A stretch of 35,431 nucleotides of DNA from Acidimicrobiales bacterium (GTDB taxonomy: Bacteria > Actinomycetota > Acidimicrobiia > Acidimicrobiales > MedAcidi-G1), in contig JAKURV010000022.1 of the NCBI GenBank assembly GCA_022452035.1, positions 1-35,431 of the forward strand. The letters are read 5' to 3'. The position numbers were made by a program, and so were the translations under genes. The notes under the pieces are model-generated. The model did no database searches, had not been told where the DNA came from, and saw nothing but the letters and a program-made list of their open reading frames with translations. Each line of letters starts with the position of its first letter. Positions within the stretch are counted from its first letter, which is position 1. Positions 5,791-19,411 of the stretch are shown here, piece by piece.

Positions 5791-7011
5791 CTAGAGGATG
5801 GCGCCGCTCTCCTTCATGGCCGCAAGTTCATCCCAACTGACTCCCAGTTCGTTGAGTAGAACCTCGGTGTGCTCGCCCAGTTCGGGGGCTCGTTCAACGC
5901 CTACCGGGGTCTCGTCGAACTGTGCCGGGCTGGCCACCAACTGCACCTGGTCGCCGTTGGCGGCTTTCATGGTCGGGAGGTAACCGTTGGCCACTGTCTG
6001 GACGTCTTCGTAGAGTTCGGTGAGGGTCTGGAAGGGAGTCCAGACGCCGGAGAAGTCCTCGAGCCGCTCCCTCCAGTACTCCAGAGTTTGGGAGCCGAAT
6101 GCCTCGTCGAGTTGGGCGATGCACTCGCTGGTGTTCTCAGCCCGAACCGCTGAATCGGCAAACTTTGGGTCGGTGGCTAGATCCGGCCGGTCTAGCCGTT
6201 CGCAGAGGTCGTCCCAGTGCTTGTCTGACTGAAGGAGGATCAGGCTTATGAACCGGTCGTCAGAGGTCCTATAAGTGTTGACGCCGGGGTTCGGGATCTG
6301 GGTGCGATCCCCGGCTGGTAGTCGACCGAACCCAAACAATTTGGCTGCCACTACCATCGGCGAGAGTTGCCAGATCGCGGTGGCGAGCAAGGAAACGTCG
6401 ACCACGCTGGGCTCGCCGGTCCGTTCCCGTTTCACCAGTGCTGCCGAGATGGCTCCGGCTATGGCCAGGCCTCCCATCACGTCTCCGAAGGCGGGCGACG
6501 GTTGACCCTGGGGCCAGCCGTCTGGTCCCTCGGGGAAGACTGCACTCAACCCGCCACGGGCCCAGAACGACGCCCCGTCGTAGCCGCCCTTCTCGGCGTC
6601 AGGGCCCTTCGGTCCCTGGCCGGAACCGCGGGCAATGATGAGAGCGGGGTTCCGGTCCCGGAGGTCGTCTACGTCGATTCCTAGCCGATGCCGGACCGAG
6701 GGCAGATAGTTGGTCAGGAACACGTCGGCCGTTTCGATGACCTTCATGAATGCCTCGTGGCCGTCGGGATTGGCCACGTTGATGGCCAGGGACCGCTTGC
6801 CCCGGTTGGGTTGCTCGACCATGAAATTGACACCCCCAGCGCCTCCGGGCAGCAGACCGGACGAGATCAACCCGCGCTGGGGGTCGCCTCCATCTGGGCT
6901 TTCGACCTTAAGGACGTCGGCCCCCCAGTCGACCAGTACCGAGGCGGCCGACGGGACAAACATCCAGCTAGCCATCTCGACGACTCGAATACCTTCCAGC
7001 GGACCGGACAT
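5791..7011 (-). CDS. Family III CoA-transferase (CaiB/BaiF type)
   Basis: A 406-residue CoA-transferase that should move CoA from an acyl-CoA donor to a carboxylic acid. The N-terminus (MSGPLEGIRVVEMASW) and the sequence GADVLKVESPDGGD (about 30-43) are typical, and Asp177 in AFGDVMGG sits where the family's covalent aspartate nucleophile lies. The segment VVDVSLLATA (about 203-212) and the small C-terminal subdomain complete a canonical domain order, which makes this protein a useful reference for the odd CoA-transferase at 17158. The ATG at 7011 has GGAG 7 bases upstream; a longer in-frame start at 7083 would run into the aldehyde dehydrogenase gene. Last gene of the minus-strand operon, convergent with the SDR. 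Confidence 0.93.
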   Translation of the reverse strand: MSGPLEGIRVVEMASWMFVPSAASVLVDWGADVLKVESPDGGDPQRGLISSGLLPGGAGGVNFMVEQPNRGKRSLAINVANPDGHEAFMKVIETADVFLTNYLPSVRHRLGIDVDDLRDRNPALIIARGSGQGPKGPDAEKGGYDGASFWARGGLSAVFPEGPDGWPQGQPSPAFGDVMGGLAIAGAISAALVKRERTGEPSVVDVSLLATAIWQLSPMVVAAKLFGFGRLPAGDRTQIPNPGVNTYRTSDDRFISLILLQSDKHWDDLCERLDRPDLATDPKFADSAVRAENTSECIAQLDEAFGSQTLEYWRERLEDFSGVWTPFQTLTELYEDVQTVANGYLPTMKAANGDQVQLVASPAQFDETPVGVERAPELGEHTEVLLNELGVSWDELAAMKESGAIL

Positions 7012-14126: not shown

Positions 14127-15113
14127 TCAGCCGACCACCTCGTCGACCAGACCCCAGGCCAGTGCCGTCTGGGCGTCGATCGTCGTTCCGGTCAAACACA
14201 TTTGGGCTGTCCGTTGGCGACCGATCCGCCGTGGCACGCTGACCGTTCCGCCTGCGCCGGGGATGAGCCCCATGGAGACCTCGGGGAGGGAGAACGTCGC
14301 CGACCCGGTGGCCTCCAGGCGTCCGGCGAATGCCGCCAACTCGGTCCCGGCACCGACCGCAGGGCCGTGGACCCGCACGGTGAGCCGATCGGCCAGCCGG
14401 TCTAGCCAGAGTCCCGCGTTGGCCGACGACCGGATCAGGTGCGCCGATGCTGGATTGTCGACCGAGCCGAACTCAGCCAGGTCGCCGCCGCAGGAGAAAG
14501 TCGGCCCCATGCCCGTCAACAGAACTGGACGACAGTCTCCGGGAGCGGTGAGCGGCCGGAGGGCTTCGACGAGGGCATCGCGCATGGCCGCGGAATAGGC
14601 GTTTCGGAGTCTTGGGCGGTTCAACGTCAGTGTCACGGTGTCGCCTTGGGCGTCCACGAGAACCGGGGGTTCCGGCTCGTCGGGCCTGACTCTTCGCCCC
14701 CGTGCCTCCAACCAGCGGGCGAACTCGTCACCGGCCTGCAGAGTCCCGTAGGTCGTCGACTCCAGCAGCAGTCCGGCCGACGTGTCCAGACCCTCGCCGT
14801 GTCGCAGTACCTGGCAGCAGGCCAGAGCGGCCTGTGGCGTGGCGGCCACCACGTCGGCGATCGCAGCGGCATCGACAGGGTCGTCGACCAGTACGTCAAA
14901 GGCGGGGGCGGTCCCTGGGGCAGCCAACCCGACAGAGATGACAGGCAGGCTGTTCAACGAGGCGGCGGCCTCCGGTGGCAGGAGGTGGGCGTCGGCGACG
15001 ACCAGTAGCCACAAGTCACGCAGCGTGCCGATGTCAAGGTCGACGACCGGCGTGGCGAGGCGTGCGGACGCCTCGTCCACGGACAACACCTGGTGAGGAA
15101 CCCTGCTGGCCAC
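14127..15113 (-). CDS. Enoyl-CoA hydratase/isomerase (crotonase) family protein with N-terminal helical part
   Basis: A 328-residue protein. Residues about 150-328 are a crotonase core: LTLNRPRLRNAYSAAM, the oxyanion segment FSCGGDLAEF, GPAVGAGTELAAF and FSLPEVSMGLIPGAGGT. Both catalytic glutamates of hydratases (rat Glu144 and Glu164) appear conserved as Glu258 and Glu278. The chain stops at AWGLVDEVVG, exactly where a normal crotonase would continue into its C-terminal helical domain. Instead, residues about 78-140 at the front look like that helical domain (IADVVAATPQAALACC, GDEFARWLEARGR), after a short degenerate core-like piece (LPVISVGLAAPG). So the order is permuted or a decayed tandem. 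The start is a GTG; the synthetase gene ends 30 bases upstream. Confidence 0.85.
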   Translation of the reverse strand: MASRVPHQVLSVDEASARLATPVVDLDIGTLRDLWLLVVADAHLLPPEAAASLNSLPVISVGLAAPGTAPAFDVLVDDPVDAAAIADVVAATPQAALACCQVLRHGEGLDTSAGLLLESTTYGTLQAGDEFARWLEARGRRVRPDEPEPPVLVDAQGDTVTLTLNRPRLRNAYSAAMRDALVEALRPLTAPGDCRPVLLTGMGPTFSCGGDLAEFGSVDNPASAHLIRSSANAGLWLDRLADRLTVRVHGPAVGAGTELAAFAGRLEATGSATFSLPEVSMGLIPGAGGTVSVPRRIGRQRTAQMCLTGTTIDAQTALAWGLVDEVVG

Positions 15114-15143: not shown

Positions 15144-16667
15144 TCAGGCAGTGGAACCGTCGCCGAGGTGGGCCAAATCGGCCCGCAGGGCCCGCCGTAG
15201 AAGCTTTCCGGTGTCGTTGTAGGGGAGGGCGGCCACAAACTCGACGTGGTCCGGGGTGCGGTTGGAACGCAGCCGGTCGCGGACGGTCGAGCGGAGTTCG
15301 TCGGCAGTTGCCGCACACCCGGGGTGCAGGACCACTGCGGCGACGATCCGTTCACCCCACTGCCGGTCGGGTAGGCCGATAGCGGCGGCGTCGGCTACCG
15401 CTTCGTGGTGCAGAAGGGACTCCTCAATTTCACTTGGAGAGATGTTCTGCCCGCCTTTCACGATCACGTCGTCGATGCGACCCGTCACGTGGAGGAAGCC
15501 GTCAGCGTCCATCCACCCACCATCGTGGGTTAGGAACCAGCCGTCGTCGGTCAGGCGAGGAGGCGAGTCGCGGTACTCGCCGGAGACCTGTTCTCCTCGG
15601 ACCCAGATCTCACCGGCTACACCGATCGGTACTTCGTCTCCGAGGTCGTCGCGGATCGTGATCTCGATGGCGGGGAGCGGTCGTCCCGCTGACCCGAGGC
15701 GTGCCCGGATCGTGGGTTCTGCGCTGGCCATGGCCTCCCGATGGTCGTCAGGCCCCAGGAGGGCCACCGTTGAACTGGTCTCGGTTAGCCCGTAGGCGTT
15801 CACGAAGGCGGTGGTTGGGAGCAGCTCCAGGGCTCGACAGATGGTCGGAAGCGGCATTCTGCCGCCGCCGTACGAAAGCGACCGCAGGGTAGGTAGCCCG
15901 GGACCGTCGGAACCCTCGGAATCTAGGAATCCGACGATACGCGTCAACATGGTCGGGACCACCATGGCGCTGGTCACCGACTCGGCCCGGACGAGGGCGA
16001 CCCAATCGGCGGCGTCGAAGGTGGGAAGTTGCACGACCCGCCGTCCTGCGTAGACGTTGGAGAGGATGGCTGCGATGCCGGCCACGTGGTACGGCGGCAC
16101 GCTCACCAGCGCAGCATCGTCTTCGGACGCCTGCATGAACTCCACCGATCCCAAGACGTACGACACGAGGTGTCGGTGGCGCAGCACTGCGGCTTTGGGC
16201 TGACCGGTGGTGCCGCTGGTGAACAACACGATGGCGGTGTCCTCGCCGGTCATGGTCCAGTCCGGGTCCTGCGGCTCGACGCCGCACACGAGGTCCAGCA
16301 GTCGGTGGCGTTCGATGACGTCAATCCCGGCGTAGCCGGCCAGGCGGTCGGGGTCGTCGGGGTCTACGACGACTACCGCCGGTGAGACCCTCGTAGTCAG
16401 TGCCAACAACTCCTCGTCGGTCAGCCGGTAGTTGAGAGGGACAAAGGGCAGGCCGGCCCAGGCTGCCCCGAACAGCGAGATGGGCAGAGCAACCGACGAC
16501 AGATCCGCCATGGCCACGTGCGTGTTGTCGCCGCTCCGGAACCGCTCGGAGGCCGCCCCGGCCTTGTTGAAGAGGCCCCGGTAGGTGAGACCACCGTCAG
16601 CCGAGCCGATCGCAACCCGGTCGCCAAATCCCTCTGCTGCCATCTCCAGCAGCATCATCAGGTTCAC
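15144..16667 (-). CDS. Acyl-CoA synthetase (AMP-binding, ANL superfamily)
   Basis: A 507-residue adenylate-forming ligase activating a carboxylic acid with ATP and CoA. Motifs in order: TSGTTGQPKAAV (150-161, P-loop-like), VNAYGLTETSS, the hinge-region GRIDDVIVKGGQNISPSEIE, and the catalytic Lys near 488 in NDTGKLLRRAL. Length and motif spacing are canonical. The start is taken as GTG at 16667; ATGs three and four codons later are alternatives, and the ribosome site is weak. It lies between the small Cys-containing protein (39 bases upstream) and the odd crotonase (30 bases downstream). The three likely form one transcription unit that activates and processes an acid. Confidence 0.93.
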   Translation of the reverse strand: MNLMMLLEMAAEGFGDRVAIGSADGGLTYRGLFNKAGAASERFRSGDNTHVAMADLSSVALPISLFGAAWAGLPFVPLNYRLTDEELLALTTRVSPAVVVVDPDDPDRLAGYAGIDVIERHRLLDLVCGVEPQDPDWTMTGEDTAIVLFTSGTTGQPKAAVLRHRHLVSYVLGSVEFMQASEDDAALVSVPPYHVAGIAAILSNVYAGRRVVQLPTFDAADWVALVRAESVTSAMVVPTMLTRIVGFLDSEGSDGPGLPTLRSLSYGGGRMPLPTICRALELLPTTAFVNAYGLTETSSTVALLGPDDHREAMASAEPTIRARLGSAGRPLPAIEITIRDDLGDEVPIGVAGEIWVRGEQVSGEYRDSPPRLTDDGWFLTHDGGWMDADGFLHVTGRIDDVIVKGGQNISPSEIEESLLHHEAVADAAAIGLPDRQWGERIVAAVVLHPGCAATADELRSTVRDRLRSNRTPDHVEFVAALPYNDTGKLLRRALRADLAHLGDGSTA

Positions 16668-16706: not shown

Positions 16707-17012
16707 TCAGTCGGAGGAGGGAAGCGGCTTGGCGTCCTTGAGCTCCAGGAGCATGTCTCCGATGCTGAGGGAGCCGTCCCCCGGTCGGGTGCACAACACC
16801 TCGACCGTCTCGTCTGGGTCCACATAGCGCTTGCCCAACAGGGTGCCGTCCGATGCCCCGTCCGTAGACACGCCGTCACCGGCCCCGGTTTCCGCCGGAA
16901 CCATGGGTACACCGCCACACCGGAGGTCGACCTCGCCGGCGCCCTTCACCACGATCACTTGGGTGCTGCAGACACTGCTGGCGAACCGGCTTCCGGGCTT
17001 CAGATCTGACAT
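16707..17012 (-). CDS. Small Cys-containing protein of unknown function
   Basis: A 101-residue acidic, apparently soluble protein without signal peptide or membrane segment. Three cysteines are visible: Cys15 (SVCSTQVIVVK), Cys32 (LRCGGVPM) and Cys74 (EVLCTRPGDGSL). The alternating CSTQ...RCGG...CTRP pattern could bind metal or form disulfides, but no known motif is matched. The ATG at 17012 has AGGAG 9 bases upstream. It is the first gene of the unit with an acyl-CoA synthetase and the odd crotonase. The coding frame looks real because spacing, ribosome site and orientation all agree. I do not recognise a named function. Confidence 0.75.
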   Translation of the reverse strand: MSDLKPGSRFASSVCSTQVIVVKGAGEVDLRCGGVPMVPAETGAGDGVSTDGASDGTLLGKRYVDPDETVEVLCTRPGDGSLSIGDMLLELKDAKPLPSSD

Positions 17013-17157: not shown

Positions 17158-18387
17158 ATGGCTGGTAGTTCCGATCCCGCTTGTCTGGTGGACGAGCTGA
17201 CTGCCGACCACTCGGTCGGCGGCGACGCGTCGTCAGGTTGGGCCGCCTCGGGGGCAATGGCCCTCACCGGTCCGGCCGACGGTCTATCCCGCCCCGCCCC
17301 GGCTGCCCTCGTTGACGGCATGTGGCGCCTTGTCGACCGGTACGAGGCGCTGGGTGGCGACCCGACCGACGGCCCTGCGCTGCTCGGGGAGCGGGCTGCG
17401 CTGGCGGGCATGGGCCGACGAGGAGCGACCTCGGTGGGCGGACATGCACGCCTGATGGCCGCTAGGGACGGACCGGTCTGTGTGAACCTGGCCCGACCGG
17501 ACGATCTGGCGGCACTTCCGGCGCTGCTTGGCGAGGACGTGGACCCCCCCTGCTGGCCCACTGTCGAACAGATAGTCCGGCGTTGTCTGTCGGCGGAACT
17601 GGTCGAGCGCGCCGACCTGCTGGGCATGCCACTGGGGGCACCCGGAACCGGCCCTGGGCGTCCTGCGGCCGTCACCGCCGGTGGCTCCTCGACCCGACGG
17701 TATGACCAGATCCTGGTGGTGGAGTTGGGGTCGTTGTGGGCTGCGCCACTCTGTGGTGACCTGCTCCGTCGGGCGGGTTGCCGGGTGGTGAAGGTCGAGA
17801 GCCATGCCCGGCCCGACGGTGCCAGGCGTGGCCTTGCGGCCTTCTTCGACCTACTGAACGTCGGCAAGGAATCGGTTGTCGTCGACATGAGAACCGGGGC
17901 CGGCCGTGACGCTTTACACCGCCTCGTCTCGTCAGCGGACGTAGTGGTGGAGGCCAGCCGTCCGCGGGTGATGCGCCAGTGGGGGGTCGACGTTGACGTT
18001 CTGGTCGAGTCGGGCACTGTCTGGACATCGATCACCGGCTACGGGCGCACCGGACCTCGGTCGTCCGGTGTGGCGTTCGGAGATGACGCTGCGATCTCGG
18101 GGGGCCTGTTTCTGGAAGAGCCGCTGGGCTTCGTGGCCGACGCGGTAGCCGATCCTGCCACGGGGTTATTGGCCGCGGTCCTGACACTCGCCGCCCTGAA
18201 GAGCGGTCGGGGTCACCTGCTGGACGTCTCGCTGGCCGGTACGGCCAGATGGCTGACGGGCGACGGCCGGATGGTCGACGTCTCTAACGGCGTGGAGGTG
18301 GCCCAACCCAGGGCCCGGAACGCCGATGCACCGGCCAGAGAGATGGGTGTCGACACCGCCTCGGTAATGGCTGGACTTCTTACCTGA
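17158..18387 (+). CDS. Family III CoA-transferase-like protein with rearranged domain order
   Basis: A 409-residue protein. Residues about 182-365 match the first half of a family III CoA-transferase: YDQILVVELGSLWAAPL, AGCRVVKVESHARPDG, and LLDVSLAGTA, with Asp332 in ADPATG near the catalytic Asp position. Nothing resembling the usual second half follows. Instead, the first 165 residues resemble the middle and C-terminal part of the family: WAASGAMALTGPADG aligns with WARGGLSAVFPEGPDG of the normal protein at 5791-7011, LVDGMWRL with FGDVMGGL, and ELVERADLLGMPLGAP with the C-terminal subdomain. The protein is thus permuted or a decayed tandem. It is very GC-rich and divergent from the synthetase unit. 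CoA-transfer activity is plausible but unproven. Confidence 0.82.
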   Translation: MAGSSDPACLVDELTADHSVGGDASSGWAASGAMALTGPADGLSRPAPAALVDGMWRLVDRYEALGGDPTDGPALLGERAALAGMGRRGATSVGGHARLMAARDGPVCVNLARPDDLAALPALLGEDVDPPCWPTVEQIVRRCLSAELVERADLLGMPLGAPGTGPGRPAAVTAGGSSTRRYDQILVVELGSLWAAPLCGDLLRRAGCRVVKVESHARPDGARRGLAAFFDLLNVGKESVVVDMRTGAGRDALHRLVSSADVVVEASRPRVMRQWGVDVDVLVESGTVWTSITGYGRTGPRSSGVAFGDDAAISGGLFLEEPLGFVADAVADPATGLLAAVLTLAALKSGRGHLLDVSLAGTARWLTGDGRMVDVSNGVEVAQPRARNADAPAREMGVDTASVMAGLLT

Positions 18388-18535: not shown

Positions 18536-19411
18536 GTGAGGTTCCCAATCGACGGCGTGCGGGTCGGCCACTGGACCGATGCCTCGTCTCGGACCGGTTG
18601 CACGGTGCTGCTGTTTCCGGTCGGGACGGTGGCCTCCGGTGAGGTACGGGGCGGCGCGCCGGCGACTAGGGAATTCGACCTGCTGGCACCGGAACGGACC
18701 GTGGACCGTCTAGACGCCCTGGTGCTGTCCGGTGGCTCGGCGTTCGGCCTGGCCGCCGCCGACGGGGTGGTCGGCCTCCTGGAGGAGAGGGGGGTGGGCT
18801 ATCCGACGGGCGCCGGGCCGGTCCCCATCGTCGTCGGCCTGTCGCTTTTCGACCTGCTGGAGGGCGATCCGACGGTCCGACCTGGGCCGGCCGAGGGACG
18901 TCGGGCCGCCGAGGAGGCGTCCGACGATCCGGCAATCGGGCCCGTGGGGGCGGGGGCCGGCGCCACCGTCGGGACCTGGCGGGGCCGGGACCACGCCCGA
19001 CCGGGAGGGATCGGTCTGGCCGTCGCTCGGCGGGGCGACCTGGTGGTGGCCGCCCTACTGGCCGTCAACGCCGCTGGGGACGTAGGCGATCCGGCCCAAT
19101 CGGCTGCCGTGGCCGACGGTGTCTTCGCCGGGTGGCCCGAGCCGGAAGCGGGGCCCCTCGTCGGACGGTCCAACACGACCATCGGTGCCGTGGTCACCAA
19201 CGCCCGGGTGTCCACTCACGGCTGCCTGCTCCTTGCCCAGTCGGCCCATGATGGTCTGGCCCGGGCCGTGTTCCCGTCCCATACCCGGATGGACGGCGAC
19301 GCTCTGGTTGCCGCGGCCACCGGCGACAAGGCGGTCGACGAAGGCGACCTCGACGTCCTACGGGTTCTGGCGGTCGCCGCCGTGGAGCGGGCTGTCCTCA
19401 CCGCCTGCTGA
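18536..19411 (+). CDS. P1 family peptidase/aminohydrolase (S58, DmpA/NylC type)
   Basis: A 291-residue N-terminal-nucleophile hydrolase precursor. Typical family stretches: DGVRVGHWTD near the N-terminus, ALVLSGGSAFGLAAADGV (61-78), and RSNTTIGAVVTNA (211-223). By analogy with 6-aminohexanoate-oligomer hydrolase NylC, which cleaves itself between Asn and Thr, self-cleavage would fall between Asn213 and Thr214 and free Thr214 as nucleophile. Members act as beta-aminopeptidases or oligoamide hydrolases. The GTG start at 18536 matches the usual N-terminus. Gene composition is extremely GC-rich. It lies alone downstream of the CoA-transferase, so a role in that pathway is not assured. Confidence 0.9.
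   Translation: MRFPIDGVRVGHWTDASSRTGCTVLLFPVGTVASGEVRGGAPATREFDLLAPERTVDRLDALVLSGGSAFGLAAADGVVGLLEERGVGYPTGAGPVPIVVGLSLFDLLEGDPTVRPGPAEGRRAAEEASDDPAIGPVGAGAGATVGTWRGRDHARPGGIGLAVARRGDLVVAALLAVNAAGDVGDPAQSAAVADGVFAGWPEPEAGPLVGRSNTTIGAVVTNARVSTHGCLLLAQSAHDGLARAVFPSHTRMDGDALVAAATGDKAVDEGDLDVLRVLAVAAVERAVLTAC

Follow-up and report, generated by a model that had tools for sequence, protein, structure and literature searches.

What kind of enzyme is encoded when the parts of a family III CoA-transferase stand in an order different from that of its described relatives, and how could such a gene have come about? The question is raised by a single open reading frame at 17158-18387 of the 35,431-nucleotide stretch of Acidimicrobiales DNA analysed here (the window). 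Its product (chain mass ~43 kDa) lacks the domain order large(N) - small - large(C) of described family III members, an order that is taken from those members and is no part of the Pfam definition. The gene, its assigned parts and the normal-order enzyme used for comparison are given below, with the two copies numbered as in the tandem-fused ancestor that we propose.

17158..18387, plus strand: permuted family III CoA-transferase, single ORF, 409 aa
17227..17382, plus strand: predicted middle segment, copy 1 (residues 24-75), family positions ~147-182; compared separately, profile P 6.6e-6
17383..17691, plus strand: predicted small domain, copy 1 (residues 76-178), family positions ~227-329; P 0.001, weak when taken alone
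17704..18255, plus strand: predicted large Rossmann domain, copy 2 (residues 183-366), from profile (P 8.4e-36), VIA-align and tree
18151..18153, plus strand: codon of D332, the likely catalytic Asp, aligned to Rv3272 D175 and present in 79/79 sequences
18310..18384, plus strand: putative C-terminal tail, copy 2 (residues 385-409), weak profile match (P 0.0019); the end of the model aligns with the ends of family III chains
5791..7011, minus strand: comparison enzyme, a family III CoA-transferase of normal order, 406 aa, matched by PF02515 over its whole length (E 1.3e-89)

Residues 182-365 had been read in the initial annotation as the first half of a family III enzyme, and this reading was correct. 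PF02515 matches the permuted protein only at residues 183-382 (profile 2-218 of 366, E 8.5e-35; 121 bits against a Pfam cut-off of 23.3), and BLASTP aligns residues 185-365 to the start of the normal enzyme at 5791-7011 (E 4e-11). Because single-sequence BLASTP against that enzyme reached significance for the C-half only, profiles were needed for the N-half. Permuted homologues were collected by a scan of GTDB genomes, which returned at least 422 relatives; 80 loci were kept, 78 of them with a usable CoA-transferase protein. These 78 and the window's own sequence gave a 79-sequence profile of residues 24-178, which was compared with an alignment of 28 normal enzymes. The N-half profile matched positions 147-329 of the normal enzymes (P 7.3e-7) with a score of 51.3, against 21.8 for the best of 60 column shuffles and 14.1 for the reversed alignment. 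When the whole permuted alignment was used, three matches to the normal one were obtained: 184-377 to 8-216, 19-171 to 141-329 and, for the C-tail, the weak match already listed (alignment columns 411-434 to 368-391).

Furthermore, the N-half profile found two matches among all PDB sequences at E up to 1, both to family III and collinear (E 0.0049 and 0.024). PF02515 was matched at E up to 1 by 28 of 51 individual N-halves (best 1.4e-6); the window's own N-half is among those that gave no PF02515 match at this threshold. A search of 41 related genomes with the N-half returned 14 weak matches outside permuted genes (E 8.5e-5 to 9.3e-4). All eight of those that were read lie in frames starting with a family III large domain (E 5.6e-65 or better), where the match falls on the middle segment inside the large domain, and seven of these eight normal frames hold a second piece, weakly matched, at the place of the small domain (E 0.05 to 3.2). 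An HMM of the normal middle-plus-small region, run on single permuted proteins, mostly matched the second occurrence of the middle segment, in the C-half, and rarely the N-half. Together, the profile comparisons confirm the predicted identity of residues 24-178 as the middle segment and small domain of family III. Three other readings were tried and rejected: a chance match, by the shuffles; an unrelated domain, by the shuffle controls, the PDB profile matches and the related-genome matches in family III genes; and an assembly error as the cause of the domain order, by the orthologues in many records.

The comparison of both halves with family III profiles had been named beforehand as the test that could overturn the initial annotation, and it gave the significant N-half match reported above. 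The assignment of residues 28-165 to the middle and C-terminal part of the family is upheld for the middle segment, extended by the small domain, and the pairing of WAASGAMALTG with WARGGLSAVFP was reproduced in the profile alignment. We correct the assignment in one respect: these residues do not match the stretch in which the family chain returns C-terminally into the large domain. A weak match to that C-tail is found at the very end of the permuted protein, its normal place. Similarly, the claim of a reversed order holds in that the small domain precedes the large one, but not as a simple reversal, the middle segment being present twice. In a strict circular permutation each segment would occur once, in rotated order; here the middle segment is doubled and the C-tail, on its weak match, is still last. 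A tandem fusion would hold two complete copies, and the permuted protein has one large and one small domain. By descent we class the protein as a derived subfamily of CoA-transferase family III and not among its canonical members.

We propose that the permuted gene is probably a trimmed tandem-fused family III CoA-transferase that keeps the parts of one active site. The ancestor would have been a tandem-fused enzyme in which a single chain formed a pseudo-dimer of copies 1 and 2. Copy 1 would have lost its Rossmann large domain and retained the middle helices and small domain, while copy 2 would have lost its small domain and retained the large domain, the catalytic Asp and the C-terminal tail. 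PMC9196870, PMC3720670 and PMC12246613 describe family III CoA-transferases as dimers, interlocked in two of the three, with both active sites each formed jointly by two subunits. According to PMC9196870, central helices contributed by each subunit are packed symmetrically where the two meet; the retained middle segments of both copies would preserve both halves of this interface. For alpha-methylacyl-CoA racemase (MCR), PMC12246613 assigns the active site to the large domain of one subunit and the small domain of its partner. Given that the dimer sites are shared between subunits, the small domain of copy 1 and the large domain of copy 2 would be the parts of one site. PMC12246613 also ascribes the CoA pocket of MCR to the large domain alone; the small domain could therefore be less important than we assume here. 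We infer activity as a CoA-transferase, in which CoA transfer would proceed via an aspartyl-CoA intermediate at D332, with one active site per chain.

An AlphaFold model of the permuted monomer, based on 20 aligned sequences, is compact (mean pLDDT 89.9, pTM 0.93). VIA-align of this model returned 49 entries with Z 17.1 to 21.8, which we take to be CoA-transferases or racemases of family III, and the next entry drops to 6.7. The comparison covers almost only residues 183-409, so that the fold of the N-half is hardly probed there, and the Z of 17-22 to family III chains refers to the large domain, residues 183-366. Of the 49 entries, 31 are aligned from residue 182 or 183 onwards and 18 from residue 64 or 66, and the alignments run to 404-409. 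In the normal chains the alignment reaches nearly to the C-terminus, yet it comprises only 206-231 residues, which implies that their small domain is skipped. For the N-half, the model predicts strands at 97-101, 106-110 and 170-177, plus helices, in agreement with the three-stranded small domain described for MCR in PMC12246613.

The permuted protein could instead be active only as a homodimer, with each site completed by the small domain of the partner chain, in the manner of normal family III enzymes. The dimers described in PMC9196870, PMC3720670 and PMC12246613 would lead one to expect this, and it is compatible with our model, which is a monomer prediction. However, the model packs both halves within one chain at the pTM given above, and the doubled middle helices would already provide both halves of the central interface. 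We regard an obligate homodimer as a real possibility, though not the one we expect.

If the gene is a trimmed tandem fusion, its source may be sought among the tandem-fused two-copy CoA-transferases of ~800 aa that are present in the same genomes (L169, L174, L175 and others). Ten regions were taken as possible tandem fusions. Two of them, L177 and L178, hold one copy only and are labelled single in the tree, and L170, a near copy of L169, was left out of the trees; the tandem proteins analysed were seven, L169 and L171-L176. In the tree of large domains, which has 74 rows and a midpoint root only and leaves out the short first copy of L173, the 25 permuted large domains form one clade (100/100) on a long stem (0.93). 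This clade adjoins copy 2 of four tandem fusions (98/85), three of them close kin, and no copy 1 falls inside. The next larger clade, unstarred (92/75), takes in six of the seven copy 2 rows, one unfused row and none of the six copy 1 rows; copy 2 of L171 is placed elsewhere in the tree. Against the N-half profile, copy 1 scored 65.9 (7 rows) and copy 2 49.0 (7 rows), with 53.4 (10 rows) and 23.3 (6 rows) for single enzymes, and the score of copy 1 exceeded that of copy 2 in six of the seven tandem proteins, L171 showing the reverse. The best single rows were the unfused nor_L163 (41.4), copy 1 of L169 (40.5) and another unfused enzyme (39.7). Copy 1 as the source of the N-half is favoured, not proven, because the top single row is unfused and L171 prefers copy 2.

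An ordinary circular permutation, in which tandem duplication of a single-copy gene was followed by trimming, without an old fused ancestor, has to be weighed against this origin. The net order, small before large, is what a permutation produces, the N-half is matched by some single enzymes no less well than by copy 1, and the orthologue of genome G027 has no doubled middle. In contrast, the computed kinship of the large domain with copy 2 of tandem fusions, the preference of the N-half for copy 1 in six of the seven tandem proteins and the doubled middle in all aligned homologues except that of G027 argue against this route, which we consider quite improbable.

The G027 orthologue (L023 / L180, G027:C17) is ~280 aa long, begins at the small domain and, lacking the doubled middle, is nearly a clean permutation. 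A tandem fusion, L173 (G027:C12), has a shortened large domain in copy 1 (profile 107-202 only) and perhaps represents an intermediate stage. We also searched 59 N-terminal extensions for stubs of the Rossmann domain. Two (G036 and G029) match the first 31-36 large-domain positions, with E 3.1e-6 and 2.7e-4 and 18.5 and 12.2 bits, compared with 5.8 bits for the best of 1180 shuffles; in the other 57, the window's included, no stub rose above the shuffles (next best 2.8 bits).

Residue conservation, computed over the window's sequence and the 78 from kept loci, bears on the chemistry that the trimmed fusion could retain. D332 is Asp in 79/79 sequences and was aligned, by a manual count along the alignment, to D175 of Rv3272, which we presume to be catalytic. 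The D175A mutant of Rv3272 is in the PDB as 5yiy. The column of copy 1 that is equivalent to the Asp of the normal enzyme holds Asp in 6 of 79, a position without conservation. Of the racemase His-Asp pair the Asp is present, and the His position is only bracketed by the alignment ends (query 306-308). A pseudoenzyme, or a racemase or isomerase instead of a transferase, is improbable: family III includes alpha-methylacyl-CoA racemase, matches to it end beside the racemase His, and the GDD motif at 308-310, for which we know of no function, is invariant among the 79 sequences, but D332 is equally invariant and residue 307, near the His position, is Phe or Tyr in 79/79.

The permuted gene lies next to three genes on the opposite strand, so that the order is crotonase (minus), synthetase (minus), 101-aa protein (minus) and permuted CoA-transferase (plus):

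14127..15113, minus strand: crotonase with an extra N-terminal part and without the C-terminal helices; PF00378 matches residues 160-327 (profile 7-174 of 251)
15144..16667, minus strand: AMP-forming acyl-CoA synthetase (PF00501, E 5.2e-60)
16707..17012, minus strand: 101-aa protein, co-occurring gene, no family above cut-off

It had been suggested that the crotonase is rearranged in the same way, for which our data are suggestive only. Compared with 15 normal crotonases of the same genome, its N-part finds its best match in the very region that is missing (195-261), but the match is weak (P 0.039, probability 1.3%, score 19.0 versus 15.0 for the best of 60 shuffles). A PDB search at E up to 10 returned three matches, two to crotonases at the C-terminal helices (E 0.12 and 0.93) and one to a sensor kinase (E 0.87). 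We consider a move of the crotonase's C-terminal helices to its N-terminus plausible but short of established. A pair of Glu spaced 20 residues apart is invariant in 40/40 sequences and presumably forms the catalytic motif. In all 46 extracted homologues of the 101-aa protein (L086-L165), the last five residues before the stop are LPASD (35) or LPSSD (11). A PDB search with this protein gave nothing at E up to 1; raising the limit to E 10 added two matches, neither of them convincing, and the N-terminal domain of desulfoferrodoxin was weakly matched by 6 of 34 members (best E 0.022).

The initial annotation had further asked whether these four genes occur together across genomes, and had named a failure to do so as a second ground for refutation. 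For three of them they do: in searches of 246 genomes of the phylum, the permuted N-half, the 101-aa protein and the crotonase N-part were each found in ten genomes, and the ten are identical (E up to 1e-5). This sample includes the window's genome and its genomes are not independent; moreover, the best 15-20 candidates per genome were scored, which makes absence less certain than presence. For some of these ten genomes, a long distance separates the 101-aa gene from the CoA-transferase (~2.3 Mb in G113, ~4 Mb in G077). In the set of 41 relatives, the genomes with the 101-aa protein and those with the crotonase N-part are the same 25, and the permuted N-half is strong in 24 of those and nowhere else. 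Four of the remaining 16 have weak N-half matches only, in all four cases to normal family III genes. In G040 (L179, G040:C77) the 101-aa gene, synthetase and crotonase stand in a row, and the search did not find the N-half of a CoA-transferase. The 101-aa protein was present in 13 of 14 searched genomes holding kept loci: six were known from the locus, and among the other eight, seven were positive (two in part) and G294 (Gordonia amicalis) was without it.

The synthetase was counted by neighbourhood only, because its family is too common for presence or absence to inform. By bit-score thresholds, the 80 loci kept of at least 422 hold a crotonase in 57 cases, the 101-aa gene in 47, a close synthetase in 41 and none of these in 15. 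For the 41 kept loci of at least 20 kb the counts are 31, 21, 19 and 8. Co-occurrence of the four thus stands for the CoA-transferase, the 101-aa protein and the crotonase, and for the synthetase as proximity alone. The computed linkage of the three genes is stronger than the initial annotation could know. By their labels, the kept loci range from Acidimicrobiales, Mycolicibacterium, Nocardia, Rhodococcus, Gordonia, Streptomyces and Actinomadura to Azoarcus, Aromatoleum, Halioglobus and Spongiibacteraceae. One record, L096, is labelled Euryarchaeota archaeon NP106 but has a CoA-transferase nearly identical to the one in Candidatus Microthrix UBA2131 (L097); the archaeal label or bin is probably wrong.

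A trimmed fusion with one site per chain may belong to a route of acyl-CoA catabolism that it shares with the synthetase, crotonase and 101-aa protein encoded beside it. One could go further and suppose that this one-site chain and a likewise trimmed crotonase are obligate partners that pass a CoA thioester within a complex including the 101-aa protein, which we regard as unlikely.

The neighbours suggest acid catabolism through acyl-CoA steps. Two Rhodococcus plasmids and one Sphingobium plasmid carry the permuted CoA-transferase with an Amidohydro_3 protein and an annotated enoyl-CoA hydratase/isomerase. The annotations of these plasmids label the gene simply CoA transferase, which makes it easy to overlook the rearrangement. 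In two genomes with mycobacterial gene content, the permuted pair is accompanied in G077 (L208) by a GTP phosphoenolpyruvate carboxykinase and, beside the crotonase, by FadD4, and in G189 (L205) by an acyl-CoA dehydrogenase and, adjoining the CoA-transferase, by a protein that matches Rv0216 (2bi0, E 4.1e-183). Both of these FadD4 / Rv0216-type loci also hold an Amidohydro_3 gene. Most of the loci L086-L100 have a normal-order CoA-transferase and an acyl-CoA dehydrogenase a few kb past the crotonase, a place taken in the window by a P450 and two PF04909 amidohydrolases. Following the CoA-transferase in the window, at 18536-19411, is a gene for a peptidase of family S58 (PF03576, E 1.5e-31), which was absent from 80/80 kept loci by tblastn at E 1e-4, many of these loci being short.

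Set beside known systems, the permuted protein shares a homologous large Rossmann domain, Asp and small domain, and weakly the C-tail, with family III enzymes such as CaiB/BaiF, formyl-CoA transferase, YfdE and Rv3272. Unlike these, it has the small domain before the large one, a doubled middle, and one large and one small domain lost. The tandem fusions come nearest in their parts, copy 2 adjoining the permuted large domain and copy 1 resembling the N-half more than copy 2 does; they differ in keeping two copies. MCR has the same fold, whereas its domain order differs and the permuted protein has Phe or Tyr beside the racemase His position. The mycobacterial FadD4 / Rv0216 locus is a further point of comparison, since the permuted pair of G077 and G189 stands in a setting of this type, but the genes seen around the window do not include these neighbours. 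In the open-licence literature of PubMed Central, which we searched for the rearranged enzymes, we found no report of permuted or tandem family III CoA-transferases, and nothing for Azoarcus sp. Aa7.

Taken together, the exact co-inheritance in the sampled genomes of the phylum and the gene neighbourhoods, in Proteobacteria too, point to a catabolic route, and the locus may give mycobacterial orphan genes of the FadD4 and Rv0216 type a wider context. For the family itself, a natural one-chain, one-site enzyme would show how a family III dimer with shared sites can be reduced, and such a chain would be a simpler system for studying the family III mechanism.
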